A stretch of DNA of 64,000 nucleotides from an uncultured Chryseobacterium sp. (lineage in GTDB: Bacteria > Bacteroidota > Bacteroidia > Flavobacteriales > Weeksellaceae): the NCBI GenBank assembly GCA_913778085.1, contig CAJYXJ010000013.1, positions 186,001 to 250,000 of the forward strand. Reading direction: 5' to 3'. Position numbers and translations under genes: made by a program. The notes under the pieces are model-generated. The model did no database searches. It saw nothing but the letters and a program-made list of their open reading frames with translations, and had not been told where the DNA came from. Positions 5,002 to 63,104 of the stretch are shown in pieces (within the stretch, counting starts at the first letter, position 1; every line of letters starts with the position of its first letter).

Positions 5002-5532
5002 ATGAAAAAGTACGAAGAAAAAACAGAGGCTTTGGAAAAAATCGCAAACGGCATTACCTGGTGGATCGGATCGATCCCCTCGCTGATTGCGCATACTTTA
5101 TTTTTTGTCATTTCTTTCCTTTTGCCGTTGCTGCATCTGGTGGAATTCGATAAAATGCTGCTGATCCTTACCACCGTAGTTTCGCTTGAAGCCATTTACC
5201 TGGCTATTTTTATCCAGATGTCAGTCAATAAAAGCCATGAGAAAATCGAGGACATCCAGGAAGATATTGAAGACATCCAGGAAGACATTGAGGAAATTAG
5301 CGAAGATATCGAAGAGATCAGCGAAGACATCGAAGAAATTAACGAAGACATTGAAGACATCCAGGAAGATATTGAAGAAATTAATGAAGAAGAGGATGAC
5401 GAAGACCACAGCGAAAGAGCCAAAAATGTAATGCTTAAAAGCAATGTAAGCTCTAATAAAAACGAAATAAAGGCTCTGAAGGATAAAATAGAAGAGCTGC
5501 AGAATATGATTGACGCATTAAAAAAAGAATAG
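5002..5532 (+). CDS. DUF1003-like membrane protein with seven-heptad acidic coiled coil
   Basis: A 176-residue protein. Residues about 23-72 form two hydrophobic helices with the SLEAIYLAIFIQMSVNKSH segment resembling DUF1003 proteins. They are followed by seven near-identical heptads (IEDIQED, IEEISED, IEEINED types, about residues 76-124), a strongly acidic stretch, and a second short helix ending DKIEELQNMIDALKKE. The heptads place Ile at a and d positions, a parallel coiled coil, so the protein probably oligomerises at the membrane. The DNA shows 21-bp imperfect tandem repeats at about 5245-5395. Function unknown. Fourteen bases after the TIGR02757 gene, followed by a terminator. Confidence 0.72.
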   Translation: MKKYEEKTEALEKIANGITWWIGSIPSLIAHTLFFVISFLLPLLHLVEFDKMLLILTTVVSLEAIYLAIFIQMSVNKSHEKIEDIQEDIEDIQEDIEEISEDIEEISEDIEEINEDIEDIQEDIEEINEEEDDEDHSERAKNVMLKSNVSSNKNEIKALKDKIEELQNMIDALKKE

Positions 5533-55022: not shown

Positions 55023-55030
55023 GAAATCAA

Positions 55031-55196
55031 TTAAACGCAAAGTTTTATTTGTAAGGCTGCACATTTTAAGCGGTCAAAGCAGGCGGCAAAGCCGCTGATG
55101 AAGCGTACGGATAAGCCGCTGCGCTTCATCAGATCAGCTTGCTGATCCGTTCTTTGCTTCCTTAATTTATATACAGAGAAAATATGCCTTTGCGTT
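55031..55196. repeat. Palindromic element bounded by inverted ends
   Basis: Bounded by ttaaacgcaaag at 55031-55042 and ctttgcgttaa near 55186-55197, with an inner palindrome gctgatgaagcg/cgcttcatcag (55093-55132) and gatcagc/gctgatc. About 165 bases, GC-richer than the surroundings, ending 15 bases before the GxxExxY gene. Confidence 0.6.
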
Positions 55197-55212
55197 AAAT
55201 AAAAACACACAT

Positions 55213-55589
55213 ATGACAGAAAATGAATTATCCTACAAAATTATTGGAGCAGCCCTAGAAGTACACCGGAGTTTAGGAGTTGGTTTGTTAGAGAACACTT
55301 ATGAAATTGCCTTGCTTTATGAATTAAAACAGTTGGGCCTTGACGTGCAACAACAGGTTGCATTACCCTTATATACAAAGATATAATAATCGAAAATGCC
55401 TATAAAATAGATCTTGTCATCGAAGGCAAAGTAATTGTTGAAATAAAATCGGTTTTAGAAATACATCCCATATTTCAGGCTCAATTGTTAACGTATTTGA
55501 AATTAGCCCATATGAAACTCGGACTTTTAATTAATTTTAATACATTACTTATAAAACATGGAATCCATAGGGTCGTAAACAATTTATAA
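55213..55589 (+). pseudogene. GxxExxY protein gene, single frameshift
   Basis: The reading frame from ATG 55213 encodes SYKIIGAALEVHRSLGVG and the family motif GLLENTYEIALLYELK, then stops at 55384-55386. Restoring one missing base near 55369-55375 gives continuous sequence (YKDIIIENAYKIDLVIEGK, VEIKSVLEIHPIFQAQLL, MKLGLLINFN) to a stop at 55587-55589, the normal length of about 125 residues. GxxExxY proteins have a PD-(D/E)XK-like core and unknown function. Its stop overlaps the next start (TAATG). A sequencing error in the homopolymer-free ttatataca tract is possible. Confidence 0.82.
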
Positions 55590-58060
55590 TGAACAAAATT
55601 TTACTTTTTTCTTTTCTTTTTATTCAGCTGCTGATCAACGGCCAGACTTCGGAGCGTTCATTGTCTTCTCAGGATTGGCAGTTTAAAAATACAAAAGATC
55701 TCAAATGGTTGCCGGCTAAAGTTCCGGGGACCGTCCACATGGACCTGATGAACAACAGCATCATTCCCGATCCTTACAAAGACGAAAACGAAAAAAAGGT
55801 GCAATGGGTAGAAAATGAAGACTGGGAGTACCAGACCGCCTTCAATCTTTCTTCACGGGAATGGCAGCATAAAAATATCGATCTGGTTTTTTCCGGACTG
55901 GATACTTCTTCTGAGGTGTATCTGAACGGGAAATTAGTAAAAAGTACAGACAACATGTTCAGGATATGGACCATTCCGGCAAAAATTCATTTAAAACAGG
56001 GCGAAAACATACTTCAGGTAAAATTTAAATCTGCTGTAAACGTGGGGAAAGATTTAGCCAAAAAAGTTCCTTTCATTCTGCCGGAATCACCGAGAAGTTT
56101 AGTAAGAAAGGCACAGTACCAGTTCGGTTGGGACTGGGGCCCGAGGTTGGTGACAGCCGGAATCTGGAAAGAGGTCAGCCTCAGGTTCTGGGATCTGGCT
56201 CAACTGAAAACCGTGAAGATCGAACAGATGAAACTGACACCACAGAAAGCAGAGCTGGCCGTTCATGCAGAGATATTCGCTCAGGAAGCCGGAAAGTATA
56301 AGCTTTCCATCAATAATCAAATTCAGGATCTTGCTTTAAAATCGGGATTAAACACCATTTCGGTGCCATATCAGATCAGGAACCCAAAGTTCTGGCAGCC
56401 GAACGGTTGGGGAAAACCCAATCTGTATGATATTAAAGTTGCCTTGCAGAAAGCGTCAGAAATCATTAACGAAAAAACGGAGCGGATCGGACTGAGAACG
56501 GTAGAGTTAATTCAGGAAAAAGATGACAAAGGGAAGTCATTTTACTTTAAAGTGAACGGTCAGCCGATGTACGCCAAAGGAACCAACTGGATTCCCGGGG
56601 ACAGTTTTTCGCCAAGAATGACCAAAGAAAAATATCGGAAGCTGATCAAAGATTGTAAAGAGGCCAATATGAACATGATTCGTGTATGGGGCGGCGGCAT
56701 TTACGAAGATGATGAATTCTACAAAGCCTGTGATGAGAACGGCATCCTGGTCTGGCAGGATTTCATGTTTGCCGGAAGTTTTTATCCGGCTGATGAAAGT
56801 TTCCGCGAAAATGTGAATGAGGAAGTTAAGGATCAGATCGAAAGGCTGCAGAATCATCCTTCACTGGCTTTATGGTGCGGAAACAACGAAATTGATGAGG
56901 CCATCGTTAATTGGGGCTACCAAAAGCAGTTTAAGTATTCAAAAAACGATTCGCTGCAGGTCTGGAAAGATTACCAAGCGATTTTTCATGAAGTGATCCC
57001 CGAAGCCATCAAAAAATACGCAACGGCTGATAAGCAAATTTACTGGCCCAGTTCTCCGTCCATTGGCTGGGGGCACAAAGAAAGCCTGACGGAAGGCGAT
57101 TCCCACTACTGGGGCGTCTGGTGGGGCGAGCAGCCGTTTGAAATCTTTAACGAAAAAATTCCGCGCTTCGCTTCGGAGTATGGCTTCCAGGGAATGCCGA
57201 CGCTGGAAACCACAAAATCGATGTTTTCGGCAAAGCCGGATTTAAGTTTACAAAATCCTGTGATCAAAGCGCACGAAAAACATTCGAGAGGCTGGGAGAT
57301 TATCGAGAATTATATGAAAAGGGACTATATCGTTCCAAAAGATTTTGTAAAATACAACTACGTCTCCCAACTGCTTCAGGCACGCGGCATGCAGATCGCC
57401 ATTGAAGCCCACCGCCGGGCCAAACCTTACAATATGGGAACCCTGTACTGGCAGCTGAACGATTGCTGGCCGGTCGTTTCCTGGTCATCCATCGATTACC
57501 TGGGCCACTGGAAAGCCCTTCATTACCAGGTGAAAAGAAGTTTTGAAGAGGTGGCCATCTTTGTGGAGGATAAAGAAAAAGCATATGATGTTTACCTTTT
57601 GAATGATACATTAACCGACTTCGATGGAGGTTTACAGGCAGAACTTTTAAGTTTTGATGGACAGCCATTATGGGCGTTGGATGCTGCCGATCACTTACCT
57701 GCCAATTCATCTGGTAAGCGTCTGTCAATAGAAAAATCTGAATTTGATGAATTTGATTTATCCGGATCGGTTTTAAGGATTGCTTTTAACGGGTCTGCGG
57801 GAAAAGCGGAAAAATTGTTTTACTTCAGCCGTCCGAAAGACCTCAAGCTTTCAAGGCCGGCCATTCAGATCAAAAAAATCTCCGCCACTGAAATCGAAAT
57901 TTCCACCGATATCCTGGCAAAAGATGTTTATCTTATGGGAGATGTCCATTTCAGCGACAACTTTTTCGATCTTTTACCCAATACATCCAAAAGGATTATC
58001 TTATCAAAACCCCTTGAAAAAATTGAAGTGATGAGCCTTTGGGATACGATGAATGAATAG
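55589..58060 (+). CDS. Beta-mannosidase, GH2
   Basis: An 823-residue exo-glycosidase removing terminal beta-mannose, as in the N-glycan core. Signal peptide (LLFSFLFIQLLINGQ), an N-terminal GH2 sugar-binding domain (about 35-190), an Ig-like domain, the catalytic barrel with E434 in WCGNNEIDE (acid/base) and E530 in ASEYGFQGMP (nucleophile), and two C-terminal beta domains. The 3' end, encoding IILSKPLEKIEVMSLWDTMN, together with the following terminator, is repeated four more times downstream (58118-58552). With GH20 and glycosylasparaginase it fits N-glycan degradation. Confidence 0.93.
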   Translation: MNKILLFSFLFIQLLINGQTSERSLSSQDWQFKNTKDLKWLPAKVPGTVHMDLMNNSIIPDPYKDENEKKVQWVENEDWEYQTAFNLSSREWQHKNIDLVFSGLDTSSEVYLNGKLVKSTDNMFRIWTIPAKIHLKQGENILQVKFKSAVNVGKDLAKKVPFILPESPRSLVRKAQYQFGWDWGPRLVTAGIWKEVSLRFWDLAQLKTVKIEQMKLTPQKAELAVHAEIFAQEAGKYKLSINNQIQDLALKSGLNTISVPYQIRNPKFWQPNGWGKPNLYDIKVALQKASEIINEKTERIGLRTVELIQEKDDKGKSFYFKVNGQPMYAKGTNWIPGDSFSPRMTKEKYRKLIKDCKEANMNMIRVWGGGIYEDDEFYKACDENGILVWQDFMFAGSFYPADESFRENVNEEVKDQIERLQNHPSLALWCGNNEIDEAIVNWGYQKQFKYSKNDSLQVWKDYQAIFHEVIPEAIKKYATADKQIYWPSSPSIGWGHKESLTEGDSHYWGVWWGEQPFEIFNEKIPRFASEYGFQGMPTLETTKSMFSAKPDLSLQNPVIKAHEKHSRGWEIIENYMKRDYIVPKDFVKYNYVSQLLQARGMQIAIEAHRRAKPYNMGTLYWQLNDCWPVVSWSSIDYLGHWKALHYQVKRSFEEVAIFVEDKEKAYDVYLLNDTLTDFDGGLQAELLSFDGQPLWALDAADHLPANSSGKRLSIEKSEFDEFDLSGSVLRIAFNGSAGKAEKLFYFSRPKDLKLSRPAIQIKKISATEIEISTDILAKDVYLMGDVHFSDNFFDLLPNTSKRIILSKPLEKIEVMSLWDTMNE

Positions 58061-58552
58061 AATTCCGGTAAATTCAAACCTCATAGGTTTCCAACACCTA
58101 TGAGGTTTACACACAACATTATCTTATCAAAATCTCCGGAAAAAATTGAGTCATTAGCCTTTGGGATACGATGAACAAGTAGGATTCCGGTAAATTCAAG
58201 CCTCATAGGTTTCCAAAACCTATGAGGTTTATACACAACATTATCTTATCAAAACCCCTTGAAAAAATTGAAGTGATGAGCCTTTGGGATACGATGAATG
58301 AATAGAATTCCGGTAAATTCAAACCTCATAGGTTTCCAAAAAACCTATGAGGTTTACACACAACATTATCTTATCAAAATCTCCGGAAAAAATTGAGTCA
58401 TTAGCCTTTGGGATACGATGAATGAATAGAATTCCGGTAAATTCAAACCTCATAGGTTTCCAAAACCTATGAGGTTTACACAAAAAATCATCTTATCAAG
58501 GCCTTTGGAAACAATCGAGGTAGTAAGGCTTTGGAATACGATGAATCAATAA
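57995..58552 (+). repeat. Tandem repeat of the beta-mannosidase 3' end plus terminator
   Basis: Five units: 57995-58117 (live gene end), 58118-58239, 58240-58364, 58365-58486 and a shorter, diverged 58487-58552. Each of the first four is 122-125 bp: the last 22 codons of the gene, attccggtaaattcaaacc, and a hairpin. Units 1 and 3 share tctccgga...gagtcattagcc; units 0 and 2 share ccccttga...gaagtgatgagc, so a two-unit block was duplicated. The last unit still encodes an intact variant tail, IILSRPLETIEVVRLWNTMN and stop. Confidence 0.9.
58076..58108 (+). terminator. Hairpin after the beta-mannosidase gene
   Basis: Perfect 13-bp stem aaacctcataggt/acctatgaggttt with a 7-base loop. The same hairpin recurs in each downstream repeat unit (about 58199-58231, 58320-58355, 58445-58478). 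The T run is short, so termination strength is uncertain. Confidence 0.65.
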
Positions 58553-58564
58553 TACAGGCTGTTT

Positions 58565-59167
58565 ATGAAAATAATAAAAAAGATTTCCGATTTCCTGTTT
58601 ATGCTATTTTTCCTGGTATTCATACCTGGAATTGTTATCACATGGACCGATTTTAAAATAAAGACTGAACTGCCGATTAACGATTTTGCCGGATTTGTTG
58701 TTGATAGCCATCAGAATATCTATATAGGCGACAGTTTCTACTCAATCATCCAGAAATATGACAGGACAGGAAACTTTACAGAATCCTTTAAGGTGAAAGG
58801 CACCTCGGGCAAACCTTTTACAATAGGTGTCGATACAAAAGACAACATCATCGTTACGCTGCAGACGGGCAGAGAAGTTGTTATATATCCTCTCTATCGT
58901 GGAGAAACCATTACTGAGAGGTCATACAAAAAAAGGGATCACAACAAATTTTTTATTACCCGCAACCATGAAAAATATGGAAATCTGGGGACCCGCTTTC
59001 CGGCGATTTGGAAATTATCAGGCACAAAAGAAAAAGTAGTGGAGCAAAGTCTTTTCCTCCAGCTGCTCAGTTTTCCGTCGATGATGGGGGTTGTTCTAAC
59101 GGCGGTTTTTCTGAAATTCATCGCATTTATCACAGAAAAATGGAGAAAACTCCGGTCCGAAACGTAG
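58565..59167 (+). CDS. Membrane protein with NHL-like beta-propeller segment
   Basis: A 200-residue protein with an N-terminal helix (about 8-28, FLFMLFFLVFIPGIVITW) and a C-terminal helix (about 165-188). Between them is a domain with NHL-repeat character (GFVVDSHQNIYIGDSFYSII, KYDRTGNFTESF, GVDTKDNIIVTLQ) but only about two blades, too few for a full propeller. Function unknown. Upstream is the repeat array, so it may rely on an internal promoter. Confidence 0.6.
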   Translation: MKIIKKISDFLFMLFFLVFIPGIVITWTDFKIKTELPINDFAGFVVDSHQNIYIGDSFYSIIQKYDRTGNFTESFKVKGTSGKPFTIGVDTKDNIIVTLQTGREVVIYPLYRGETITERSYKKRDHNKFFITRNHEKYGNLGTRFPAIWKLSGTKEKVVEQSLFLQLLSFPSMMGVVLTAVFLKFIAFITEKWRKLRSET

Positions 59168-59210
59168 AGAAATCAATTTCAGCCGTACCTTTGCCGCAGA
59201 TTTCTGAAGT

Positions 59211-60119
59211 ATGGCAAATTTTGTTCTGATTGCAGTGTGCATTATCGCAGGAATGGTGTTCAAGGCAACCAAATCCATCCATCCTGACGCGCACAAAGGC
59301 ATCAATACGTGGATCCTTTATCTGGCACTTCCTGCCGTTTCCTTCAAATACCTTCCGAAGGTGCAGTGGATGGCCGAAATGCTGTTCCCTGTAGTGGCCA
59401 CTTTCCTGATTTCGGTAGCCTGCTTTTTCTTTATGAAAGGGTACAGCCGGTACAAAGGCTATTCCGGGCGTTCACGGAGTACGCTGGAACTGGTTAGCGG
59501 TTACAGCAACACTTCATTCATCGGTTTTCCGCTGGTGGCTGCATTTTATGGGGAGAACCTTTTAAGCATTGCCGTGATCTGCGACCAGACCATGTTCCTG
59601 GCCCTTTCGACGCTGGGCATCATCGCTGCGGTAAAAGGAGGCAGCCGGTCCGGGAGAATAAGTGCACAGTTCATCCTGAAAAGGCTTGTTACCTTTCCGC
59701 CTCTTATCGGGTGTATGGCAGCATTGGTTCTTTCAAGGTTCATCGATTTTTCATCGGCAGAGCCTTTCTTCGACAAACTGGCAGCCACCGTCAGTCCTTT
59801 GGCGCTCTTTTCAGTTGGACTTCAGCTGAAATTCAACGGCTGGAAAAAGCTGATTCCCCAAATGTCCGTTTCCATGCTCTACAAGCTGCTTCTGGCCCCG
59901 GCACTCGTTTTAGGGCTTGCCTTACTGGCCGGCATCAAAGGGGATGTAGCGAAGATCACAGTCTTTGAAGCGGCAATGCCTACCGTTGTTACCTCAAGTA
60001 TCATTGCAGAACAGTTTCGGCTCAATACCAAACTCACCAATTTAACCATCGGTTTCAGCATCATCGTTGGACTTTTCACCTCAGCCATCTGGTACCATTT
60101 AACCGAATTCTTCTTTTAA
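59211..60119 (+). CDS. AEC family transporter
   Basis: A 302-residue membrane protein with about ten helices of the auxin efflux carrier family. GYSNTSFIGFPLVAAFYGE and FEAAMPTVVTSSIIAEQF are the conserved segments of the two halves, with the internal cytosolic loop rich in Gly/Arg/Ser between. Probably an organic-acid or small-molecule exporter; the substrate is unknown. Forty-three bases after the preceding gene on the same strand. Confidence 0.88.
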   Translation: MANFVLIAVCIIAGMVFKATKSIHPDAHKGINTWILYLALPAVSFKYLPKVQWMAEMLFPVVATFLISVACFFFMKGYSRYKGYSGRSRSTLELVSGYSNTSFIGFPLVAAFYGENLLSIAVICDQTMFLALSTLGIIAAVKGGSRSGRISAQFILKRLVTFPPLIGCMAALVLSRFIDFSSAEPFFDKLAATVSPLALFSVGLQLKFNGWKKLIPQMSVSMLYKLLLAPALVLGLALLAGIKGDVAKITVFEAAMPTVVTSSIIAEQFRLNTKLTNLTIGFSIIVGLFTSAIWYHLTEFFF

Positions 60120-60656
60120 TCCAGATATAAACCATTGGTACCCGAAATAAAATTAATCGAGATCAGGCAATTCAAAACCACTCTCCAAACCCTCAAACTC
60201 CCTTACCCTCAACCTTATTCCCCTGATAAGGAGCTTCATCCGGCTATCCACTCTTACTCCTCGCGCGATCGCTGATGCCACCGCCTGCTGTGGGGTAACC
60301 GTTTCTATCCGGGCTAGGGCAGCCTGCCTTTGTTCTGCATTTTGTGTTAAGATTAACGAGTGCATAAAGGAGAACTTGATTAACTGTCTGGATGCTGGAC
60401 GTGTAAAGTCAGTAAAACAATCAAAGGTCTTAATGGATATATAATTCATTAAAATCGGGCTAATACTCATTTGCTGAGTGAAATCGAATATTCGACTGGG
60501 CCAAATGCCCTTGCGACCGAAAAATAAGCGAGTCATTATCCAATAAATTCTTTGCGACCCTGGCGTTTAAAAATAAATTAAGTCCCCTCCATTTACCTTC
60601 CTTAAAAATTGCACTTCTCTCCGGAAAATTTTAATTTTACACTTTAAATATTTCCC
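60120..60656. repeat. Gene-free stretch with repeat D copy
   Basis: No gene is supported in 537 bases. Positions 60221-60335 carry the second copy of the GC-rich element seen at 38661-38800 (ggagcttcatccggct, ctcttactcctcgcgc, ctgtggggtaaccg, tccgggctagggcagc). The flanks are AT-rich and include the upstream region of priA. A 127-codon open frame on the - strand crosses the repeat and is not convincing. Confidence 0.7.
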
Positions 60657-63104
60657 TTGAATTACGCCCAGATAGTTTTGCCGTTGAATGTAAAAGGATC
60701 TTTCACCTATAAGGTTCCTGAAGAAATGCAGTCTGAAATCCAGGTCGGAATGCGGGTGCTTGTTTCCTTCCGGGGAAAGAAAATTTATACCGGAATTGTA
60801 TTTGAGCTGCACGACGAAGTTCCTGAAACCTTCCTCCCGAAAGATGTCATCAGCCTGCTGGATGATCAGCCGATCGTTCCCCAGGAGCAGATCCGGTTCT
60901 GGAACTGGCTGTCCGATTATTATCTTTGCGGGCTGGGTGAAATTTACCGTTTTGCATTCCCTTCTTCCCTGAAGTTGGAAAGCGAAACCTACCTGAAGCT
61001 GAAACCGAACGTCACCGTCGATTTTGAAAACCTGGATGTCAACGAAATGTATCTCATTCAGGCACTGGAAGTGCGCCAGCTGATCAACCTGACCGATATC
61101 GAAGCGTTTATTCCGAAAAAAGACATCATCAAAACCGTCAATTCATTAATTGATTTGCAGTATATTGAAATCGATGAAAAGATTGCGGAAAAATACAAGG
61201 CTAAAGAAATTGCTTATGTAAAGATTAAAGATGAAATCTTACATAACCAGAATCTGACGGAGATTCTTTTAAAATTAAACAAAGCCAAAAAACAGAAGGA
61301 TCTTTTCCTCCATATCCTCGAAAAGCAGACTGAAAATCCGGACCTTCACCTTAAAAAATCAGACCTTTTTGAAGACGGGTATTTCGGAAGTTCCCATTTA
61401 AAGGCCCTGACCAATAAAGATCTGGTGGAGGAGTATTACATGCAGAAAGACCGGCTCGAAAGCTACGAAGGCGACATCGAGGAACTCGAAGAACTTTCCG
61501 AAGCCCAGAAATCCGCAAAATCGGAAATCGATGAGGCCTTTGAAGAAGGGAAGAATGTCCTGCTTCATGGAGTCACTTCATCAGGGAAAACACACCTGTA
61601 TCTGGAGAAAATCGAAGAATGCATCAAGGATGGGAAAAATGTGCTGTTTTTACTTCCTGAAATAGCCCTGACCAAGCAGATTACCCAGCGGCTGGAAAAG
61701 AAATACGGCCGTCAGCTCGGCTTTTACCACCAGAAACTTACCGATTTCGAAAGGGTGGAAGTGTGGCGCCGGATCCGCCAGAACGACATCAAAGTCCTCA
61801 TCGGAACCCGGAATGCTTTGTTTCTGCCGTTTAAAAATTTAGGTCTTATTGTGGTAGATGAGGAACACGATTCTGCTTACCGGCCGAGGGAAGTATCGCC
61901 GTATTTCAATGCAAAAGATGCGGCCCTGGTGCTCGGGAATTTTTACAAAGCCCATGTTATTCTGGGCTCGGCGACGCCTTCTGTAGAAAGTTATTACAAT
62001 GCCCGGAAGGATAAGATGAAATACATTTTCCTGGAAGAACGCTTCGGCAACGTCAGTCTTCCGGAGTACGAAATCATCAACTTCAAGGAAGCCCAGGATT
62101 CCAAAAAAGTATCCGGGAATTTTTCGCTGCACCTGATTGATGAAATAAAAAAAGTACTGGAAGAGCAAAACCAGGCCATCGTTCTGCACAACCGCCGGGG
62201 CTATGCCAATGTGGTGGAATGTGAGACCTGCGGCTATGTGAACTACTGCTCTAACTGCGATGTGGTAATGACCTATCATAAGGCAGCTAACGAAATGAAA
62301 TGCCACTACTGCGGCCAGCGCGCTTCCAAACCGAAGACCTGCCCGAAATGCCACTCCGAAAATCTCAACGAAAGAGGGGTAGGCGTGGAACAGATCCACG
62401 AAGAGGTTTCCAAGTTATTTCCGGACAACGAAGTAGACCGTATGGACGTGGATTCTATGCGAAAAAAGTTCGCTTACGAAAAGCTTTACGAAAAAATCGA
62501 AGACCGGGAAACCGATATTGTCGTCGGGACCCAGATGATCTCCAAAGGACTGGATTTCGATCATATCGAGCTGGTGGCTATTCCGAAAGCGGATTCTTTA
62601 TTATATGTACAGGATTTCCGGGCGGAAGAAAGAGCGTATCAGCTGATTACCCAGGTTTCCGGAAGAGCGGGAAGAGTTTCCGGGAAAGGAAAGATCCTTA
62701 TCCAGACCTTTAATCCAGAACATTCTGTTTTTCAGTTGATTAAAATGCAGAATCCTGCCAGGATTTATAGATATATTCTTACGGAACGCCAGAAATTTCA
62801 TTATCCGCCTTTTACAAAGCTGATCATGATCGGGATTAAACATCGCCGCGAAGACAAAGCCAACCGTGCTTCCCAGTTTTTAGGTTCCATCCTCAGGAAG
62901 TATCTGCCGGAAGACTGTATTTTAGGCCCTGAAAAAGCACAGATTGCCAGGCTGAATAACCTCTATCAGTTCCAGATTATGCTGAAACTTCCCCGCGGAA
63001 AAAAGTATGAAGAATATAAAAAACTTGTTCTCTTAAGCATTAAAGAATTTGAGGAAATCCCTGCTTATCAAAGTATTAAAAAAGACATTTTTGTAGATTT
63101 TTAA
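60657..63104 (+). CDS. priA: Primosomal protein N' (PriA helicase, TTG start)
   Basis: An 815-residue replication-restart helicase that loads the replisome at stalled forks. It has an N-terminal 3' DNA-binding domain (MNYAQIVLPLNVKGSFTYKV), a helicase domain with GVTSSGKTHL (G305-L314; K311), DEEHDSAYRPRE, and the zinc-binding insert (CETCGYVNYCSNCD, CHYCGQR, CPKCH). GTQMISKGLDFDH and SGRAGRVSGKG are later helicase motifs. The start is TTG at 60657; the next ATG lies inside the conserved N-terminal domain. Confidence 0.94.
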   Translation: MNYAQIVLPLNVKGSFTYKVPEEMQSEIQVGMRVLVSFRGKKIYTGIVFELHDEVPETFLPKDVISLLDDQPIVPQEQIRFWNWLSDYYLCGLGEIYRFAFPSSLKLESETYLKLKPNVTVDFENLDVNEMYLIQALEVRQLINLTDIEAFIPKKDIIKTVNSLIDLQYIEIDEKIAEKYKAKEIAYVKIKDEILHNQNLTEILLKLNKAKKQKDLFLHILEKQTENPDLHLKKSDLFEDGYFGSSHLKALTNKDLVEEYYMQKDRLESYEGDIEELEELSEAQKSAKSEIDEAFEEGKNVLLHGVTSSGKTHLYLEKIEECIKDGKNVLFLLPEIALTKQITQRLEKKYGRQLGFYHQKLTDFERVEVWRRIRQNDIKVLIGTRNALFLPFKNLGLIVVDEEHDSAYRPREVSPYFNAKDAALVLGNFYKAHVILGSATPSVESYYNARKDKMKYIFLEERFGNVSLPEYEIINFKEAQDSKKVSGNFSLHLIDEIKKVLEEQNQAIVLHNRRGYANVVECETCGYVNYCSNCDVVMTYHKAANEMKCHYCGQRASKPKTCPKCHSENLNERGVGVEQIHEEVSKLFPDNEVDRMDVDSMRKKFAYEKLYEKIEDRETDIVVGTQMISKGLDFDHIELVAIPKADSLLYVQDFRAEERAYQLITQVSGRAGRVSGKGKILIQTFNPEHSVFQLIKMQNPARIYRYILTERQKFHYPPFTKLIMIGIKHRREDKANRASQFLGSILRKYLPEDCILGPEKAQIARLNNLYQFQIMLKLPRGKKYEEYKKLVLLSIKEFEEIPAYQSIKKDIFVDF

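Follow-up and report, generated by a model that had tools for sequence, protein, structure and literature searches.

A repeated gene end and a REP-like hairpin at a beta-mannosidase locus of Chryseobacterium: a probable recombination scar with later local amplification

How did the 3' end of a beta-mannosidase gene, together with the hairpin that follows it, come to stand several times in a row in the genome of an uncultured Chryseobacterium species, and does the repetition act as a genetic switch or record past recombination? We examined this question in a window of 64,000 nucleotides of contig CAJYXJ010000013.1 and in a comparison set of 174 Chryseobacterium genomes, one per species, in which the window genome is G000, Chryseobacterium sp. 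SN22 is G126, and MAGs SP287_2, SP210_3, S9 and SP213 are G155, G158, G136 and G157. The array is probably a recombination scar that was later amplified locally, and it has the look of a by-product of recombination, not of a genetic switch.

The repeated end belongs to a GH2 beta-mannosidase gene on the forward strand (55589..58060) that encodes 823 amino acids with the Pfam domains Glyco_hydro_2_N2, Mannosidase_ig and Ig_mannosidase (residues 756-820); among solved structures, beta-mannosidases such as 2je8 come nearest to it. The C-terminal region of this protein is present in 173 of the 174 genomes. Two genes follow on the same strand. ORF200 (58565..59167) encodes a protein of 200 amino acids that has no Pfam match and only NCBIfam matches far below cut-off, and it is sporadic in the genus, being found in nine of the 174 genomes, in eight of which it lies directly after the GH2 gene. 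The AEC-type transporter gene (59211..60119; PF03547) is conserved in relatives as the right-hand neighbour, with the same gene in this place in 17 of 18 loci compared.

Other parts of this neighborhood also vary. Residues 652-762 of the GH2 protein (about 57540-57875), in the Mannosidase_ig part, fall into two very different classes. The class of the window is common to SN22 and G155 (77-89%), and G158, G048, S9, SP213 and G147 have no match in this part, the rest of their GH2 being 82-89% identical; judged from the sequences, the difference looks like an intragenic domain swap. Between CutC and GH2 (55024-55588) lies one repeat unit of roughly 190 nt with the ends AACGCAAAG..CTTTGCGTT, followed by an apparent broken copy of a gene starting MTENELSYKIIGAA, which we take to be of the GxxExxY type. 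Relatives carry tandem arrays of 166-252 bp units in 2.2-3.7 copies between CutC and GH2, before the MTENELSYKIIGAA gene (L083, L104, L117, L134, L151, L155 and L165). A 177-bp tandem repeat of 2.9 copies, without the array hairpin, is located downstream of AEC in Chryseobacterium aquifrigidense (L124:7585-8090), and elsewhere in the window there is a short 21/42-bp tandem repeat with the unit GACATCCAGGAAGACATTGAA (5251-5390).

The array itself occupies positions 57995-58552 and consists of four units of 122-125 bp, U0 to U3, followed by a half unit, U4. Each full unit comprises the last 21 codons and the stop codon of the GH2 gene and a hairpin segment of 57-59 bp. Tandem Repeats Finder reported a period of 122 in 4.5 copies (score 844) and a period of 247 in 2.3 copies (score 928) for 57995-58551. 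All units are given in the direction of the gene. U0 (57995..58117, 123 bp) contains the gene's own tail of 66 nt and a 57-bp hairpin segment. In U1 (58118..58239, 122 bp) a deletion of 1 nt in the tail has removed the reading frame. U2 (58240..58364, 125 bp) has a tail identical to that of U0, with 0 differences in 66 positions, and a hairpin loop longer by 2 nt; aligned at full length, the two units match at 122 of 123 positions, with a 2-nt indel. U3 (58365..58486, 122 bp) has a tail of the U1 type, sharing the 1-nt deletion and differing at 3 of 65 positions, while its hairpin part differs from that of U0 at 3 of 57 positions and from that of U1 at 5 of 57. U3 is thus a mosaic, indicating that units have exchanged sequence. 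U4, which we also call T' (58487..58552), remains in frame to a TAA codon, directly upstream of ORF200, and translates as IILSRPLETIEVVRLWNTMNQ*.

These comparisons confirm, by Tandem Repeats Finder and by unit alignment, the tandem array of a gene 3' end proposed in a preliminary description of this DNA. They also bear out the duplication of a two-unit block (U0U1 to U2U3), the frame loss in U1 and U3 through their common deletion, and recombination between copies, for which the mosaic structure of U3 and a TTA leucine codon in U0-U3 as in U4 both speak. The proposed alternation of unit types holds for U0 and U2, but for U1 and U3 it holds in the tail and fails in the hairpin part. The tail of U4 is intact and different, as had been claimed, although the sequence written for it was one residue short.

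Four arrangements of the locus were observed across the genomes. In the window genome, G155, G158 and G048, the gene tail is followed by the hairpin, T' and ORF200. In SN22, G147, G119 and G051, ORF200 follows the tail after 4-15 nt, with no hairpin. In S9 and SP213, the tail and hairpin are followed by AEC, without T' or ORF200. In the remaining genomes AEC comes after GH2, and other hairpins may or may not be present. Among 80 named loci, a hairpin with arms of at least 10 lies in the gap after GH2 in 16, and 12 of these have an AGGTT..AACCT core; of the 12, two have ORF200 (L083 and L084), in nine the distance from GH2 to AEC is 78-303 nt, and in one no AEC start was recognized. A TAnnTTTG stretch upstream of AEC was found in 45 of the 80 loci; 26 of the 80 lack a recognized AEC start. 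S9 and SP213 are without this stretch, so their arrangement is at least partly the result of deletion and does not represent a clean ancestor. In L085 and L088, the same promoter-like stretch is missing and the hairpin lies directly before AEC.

U4 had been regarded as the diverged final unit of the array. In a tree of the 66-nt tails, however, a clade of U4 with U0-U3 was rejected (p-AU 0.034). Instead, the T' copies of the window (U4), G048 and G158 form a clade (98/99), as do U0-U3 (81/84); these T' copies are 86-89% identical among themselves and 67-76% identical to the tail of their own genome. The T' of G155 is decayed, being 61-65% identical to all other tails, and in the best tree it stands apart from the other T' copies, although a topology with every T' in one clade was not rejected (p 0.295). 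Unit-length matches number four in the window genome, one each in G158, S9, G155, G048 and SP213, and one, at 72%, in G139; this search scored four first-look candidates per genome and could miss extra copies. More than one such match was found in the window genome only, which argues that the amplification is local. No other hairpin-bearing tandem array was found in 90 sequences scanned, mostly around GH2, and a distant search of a plasmid collection gave no match. Together, the T' clade, the rejected grouping and the match counts indicate two ages: U4 is an old remnant of a second GH2 gene end that three other species also have, and the amplification seen in U0-U3 is local.

Other features of U4 were considered. 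The U4-type core GGAAACAATCGA occurs in one of the 80 relatives' loci, L084, where it is inside the relic copy and outside the gene's own tail. Differences between U4 and U0 are biased to third codon positions (10 of 16, p 0.016), and no such bias was seen against the tails of SN22, S9 or G158 (p 0.17-0.37). As the bias is significant against U0 only, we did not accept it as proof that U4 had diverged while still coding. The leucine codon TTA is present in all five copies in the window and in the T' of G158 and G048, compared to one of 76 scored relatives (4 of the 80 loci are missing from this count). This distribution points to a brief stretch of T' having been copied silently into the tail of the gene itself, with the residues I-L-S unchanged, though it may be one coincidence.

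The hairpins were previously read as the terminator of the gene. They lie at 58076..58108 in U0 (a 13-bp stem with a 7-nt loop), 58198..58230 in U1 (15 pairs), 58321..58355 in U2 (15 pairs, 5-nt loop) and 58445..58477 in U3 (15 pairs, 3-nt loop). All four fold stably, at -18.3 to -20.5 kcal/mol (z -5.7 to -7.0), and for each of them 0 of 200 shuffles folded equally well. Like intrinsic terminators, they are stable and directly follow a stop codon. Unlike intrinsic terminators, their stems are not followed by a T-rich tract on the gene strand: a terminator scan of 57000-60700 found such a tract on the forward strand for none of the four, and the U1 hairpin qualifies on the reverse strand, in a region with eight sites in all versus 3.9 expected. 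The reading as a canonical terminator is therefore unsupported and gives way to that of a dispersed palindrome family. Rfam gave no match over the gathering score in 57500-59000, and two sub-threshold matches (E 0.36 and 0.95) were taken as chance.

Copies of the hairpin are spread through the window genome and the genus. The 15-mer AAACCTCATAGGTTT occurs 18 times in forward and 20 times in reverse orientation in the window genome, compared to 0 for a reversed-pattern control, and the general palindrome ACCTNNNAGGTT..AACCTNNNAGGT has 23 matches there, two of them inside the array. This palindrome was found in 148 of the 174 genomes, with 0 control matches in each, at no more than 40 copies in any genome, a modest number for a REP. 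In most of the matches listed, the inner stem triplets change together on both arms, giving the sub-types CAT/ATG, TAT/ATA, CAC/GTG, AAC/GTT, TCA/TGA and GAC/GTC, some of them imperfect. Based on simple ORF calls for 19 hairpins in 18 regions, 12 hairpins lie between co-directional ORFs, six between convergent ORFs and none between divergent ORFs, and one has no right neighbor. The dispersed copies, paired triplet changes and absence of divergent-ORF sites indicate that the hairpin is a REP-like element located at gene 3' ends.

Measured against the REP elements described in PMC3733652, the array hairpin is likewise a short palindrome (33-35 bp, compared to a REP criterion of 20-40 bp), intergenic and dispersed, and its family also has stem sub-types with complementary changes. 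It differs in having no GTAG or CGTC terminal tag: reading by eye showed none on the array hairpins or on the other copies inspected. It also differs in its relation to Y1-type transposases (PF01797), of which the window genome has seven matches, six of them over cut-off: at the five of these seven loci that were examined, the hairpin was absent within about 1.5 kb, and we rejected a Y1 transposase as the mover of the hairpin. That source already describes clusters in which REPs recur in tandem together with the DNA beside them, so the array is an unusual case near a known phenomenon, the difference from the clusters described there being that the flanking DNA repeated here is the end of a coding gene. 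Among the titles of the literature matches listed, there was no account of the hairpin or the locus. Elsewhere in the window genome (L175-L179), Y1-type transposase genes lie amid other short palindromes, for example AGCCCTGAAGGGGCT-like and CCCGAAGGG-like ones, which are candidate REP systems of a different kind.

We propose that T' would have arisen once, through a join between two forms of the locus, one with ORF200 directly behind GH2 and the other with the hairpin there. The breakpoint would lie immediately past the hairpin in the latter and within the GH2 tail in the former, and a stub of the second gene end would thereby have been carried along before ORF200. The tail and T' would then have formed direct repeats, enabling unequal exchange or slippage in the window lineage, in which the tail and hairpin may have been duplicated, one copy may have lost its frame, the two-unit block may have been duplicated, and copies may have swapped short stretches. 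The resulting array would be mostly neutral.

Recombination at the locus is shown by gene trees that differ across the junction: G147 groups with SP213 in the GH2 tree (100/100) and S9 groups with SP213 in the AEC tree (100/100), with S9 and SP213 absent from the PriA tree and RU37D absent from the AEC tree. Homology-facilitated illegitimate recombination, as described in PMC3240628, combines homologous and non-homologous joins that would leave such a stub of a gene end; in difference from that process, the event at the GH2 locus is deduced from anatomy, and the join is old and common to four species. The non-homologous junction is visible as the boundary between the hairpin and T'. The homologous side is left undecided by the AEC tree, in which neither of two groupings tested was rejected (p 0.318 and 0.472). 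In the tail tree (66 nt), T' does not group with the tails from ORF200 loci that lack the hairpin; this grouping is simply unrejected (p-AU 0.271), and we discarded this tree, being too short, as proof of the donor.

One alternative is that a mobile palindrome was inserted into a GH2-ORF200 locus, copying about 66 bp of the gene tail to its other side, and that amplification followed. Such an insertion would yield tail, hairpin and T' in one step, hairpin-free loci exist in SN22 and G147, and the Y1-type transposase matches of the window genome could point to a source of mobility, although the hairpin is absent at the five loci examined. However, a target duplication of 66 bp would be very long for such mobile palindromes, and in 18 regions at other hairpin copies the flanking direct repeats reach at most 21 nt, with just two short ones detected (21 nt at 81% in L075 and 18 nt at 89% in L076). 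Similarly, among 32 hairpins with a stem of at least 12 bp in 88 sequences, duplicated flanks were seen only at the GH2 loci of the window and of G158, the latter counted twice. Since the other hairpin copies in these two comparisons are without long flanking duplications, we consider duplicative insertion rather unlikely and less probable than a join. Integrative elements are known to duplicate the 3' ends of genes, and T' could also be an attachment-site duplication left by an element that used the gene 3' end and has since been lost, the upstream copy then being borne by the element; this is extremely improbable, given that only the hairpin segment lies between the tail and T' in four species and only ORF200 lies between T' and AEC, with no integrase in either place.

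The unit number, taken from one assembly in 82 contigs, might instead reflect an error of short-read assembly over near-identical units such as U0 and U2. We regard this as highly improbable, because each unit carries distinct changes and the contig is continuous on both sides. It is also most doubtful that the array is a contingency locus in which units recombine and thereby alter the C-terminus or the terminator count, as the preliminary description had envisaged. The repeats are long enough for recombination, U3 is a mosaic, and the TTA codon suggests a silent exchange into the gene tail, but the peptides of U0 and U2 are the same and U1 and U3 are frame-shifted, so most exchanges yield the same end or a broken one. 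In addition, where a species has a single unit, the gene retains one type of tail, and the hairpin is without a U-tract on the gene strand. Neither the window locus nor the comparison of 174 genomes, one for each species, gave any sign of a switching system or of selection for switching.

On the reading as an amplified scar, exchange among the units is a possible but costly source of variation. Predicted from the unit sequences, an exchange between U0 and U2 would leave the protein unaltered, one with U1 or U3 would disrupt the reading frame close to where the Ig_mannosidase domain ends, and one with U4 would delete hairpins and alter a small number of residues. The hairpins may act on the end of the GH2 transcript, by protection or trimming. 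T' may persist through holding the original leader of ORF200, which the end of T' would form, with 12 nt between the U4 stop codon and the ORF200 ATG.

A broader possibility, which we consider unlikely and offer tentatively, is that hairpins at gene 3' ends are recurrent landing points at which foreign versions of a locus join after the hairpin, bringing ORF200 and a stub that seeds amplification. If this were true, the array would document gene gain in readable form, and REP-like hairpins would mark the places where genes are gained. The case tells apart a scar that is old and shared and an amplification that is young and local, and as such it is a small case study and not a new system. The intermediate states preserved in named relatives show a gene end being repeated and carried along during the remodelling of a locus.
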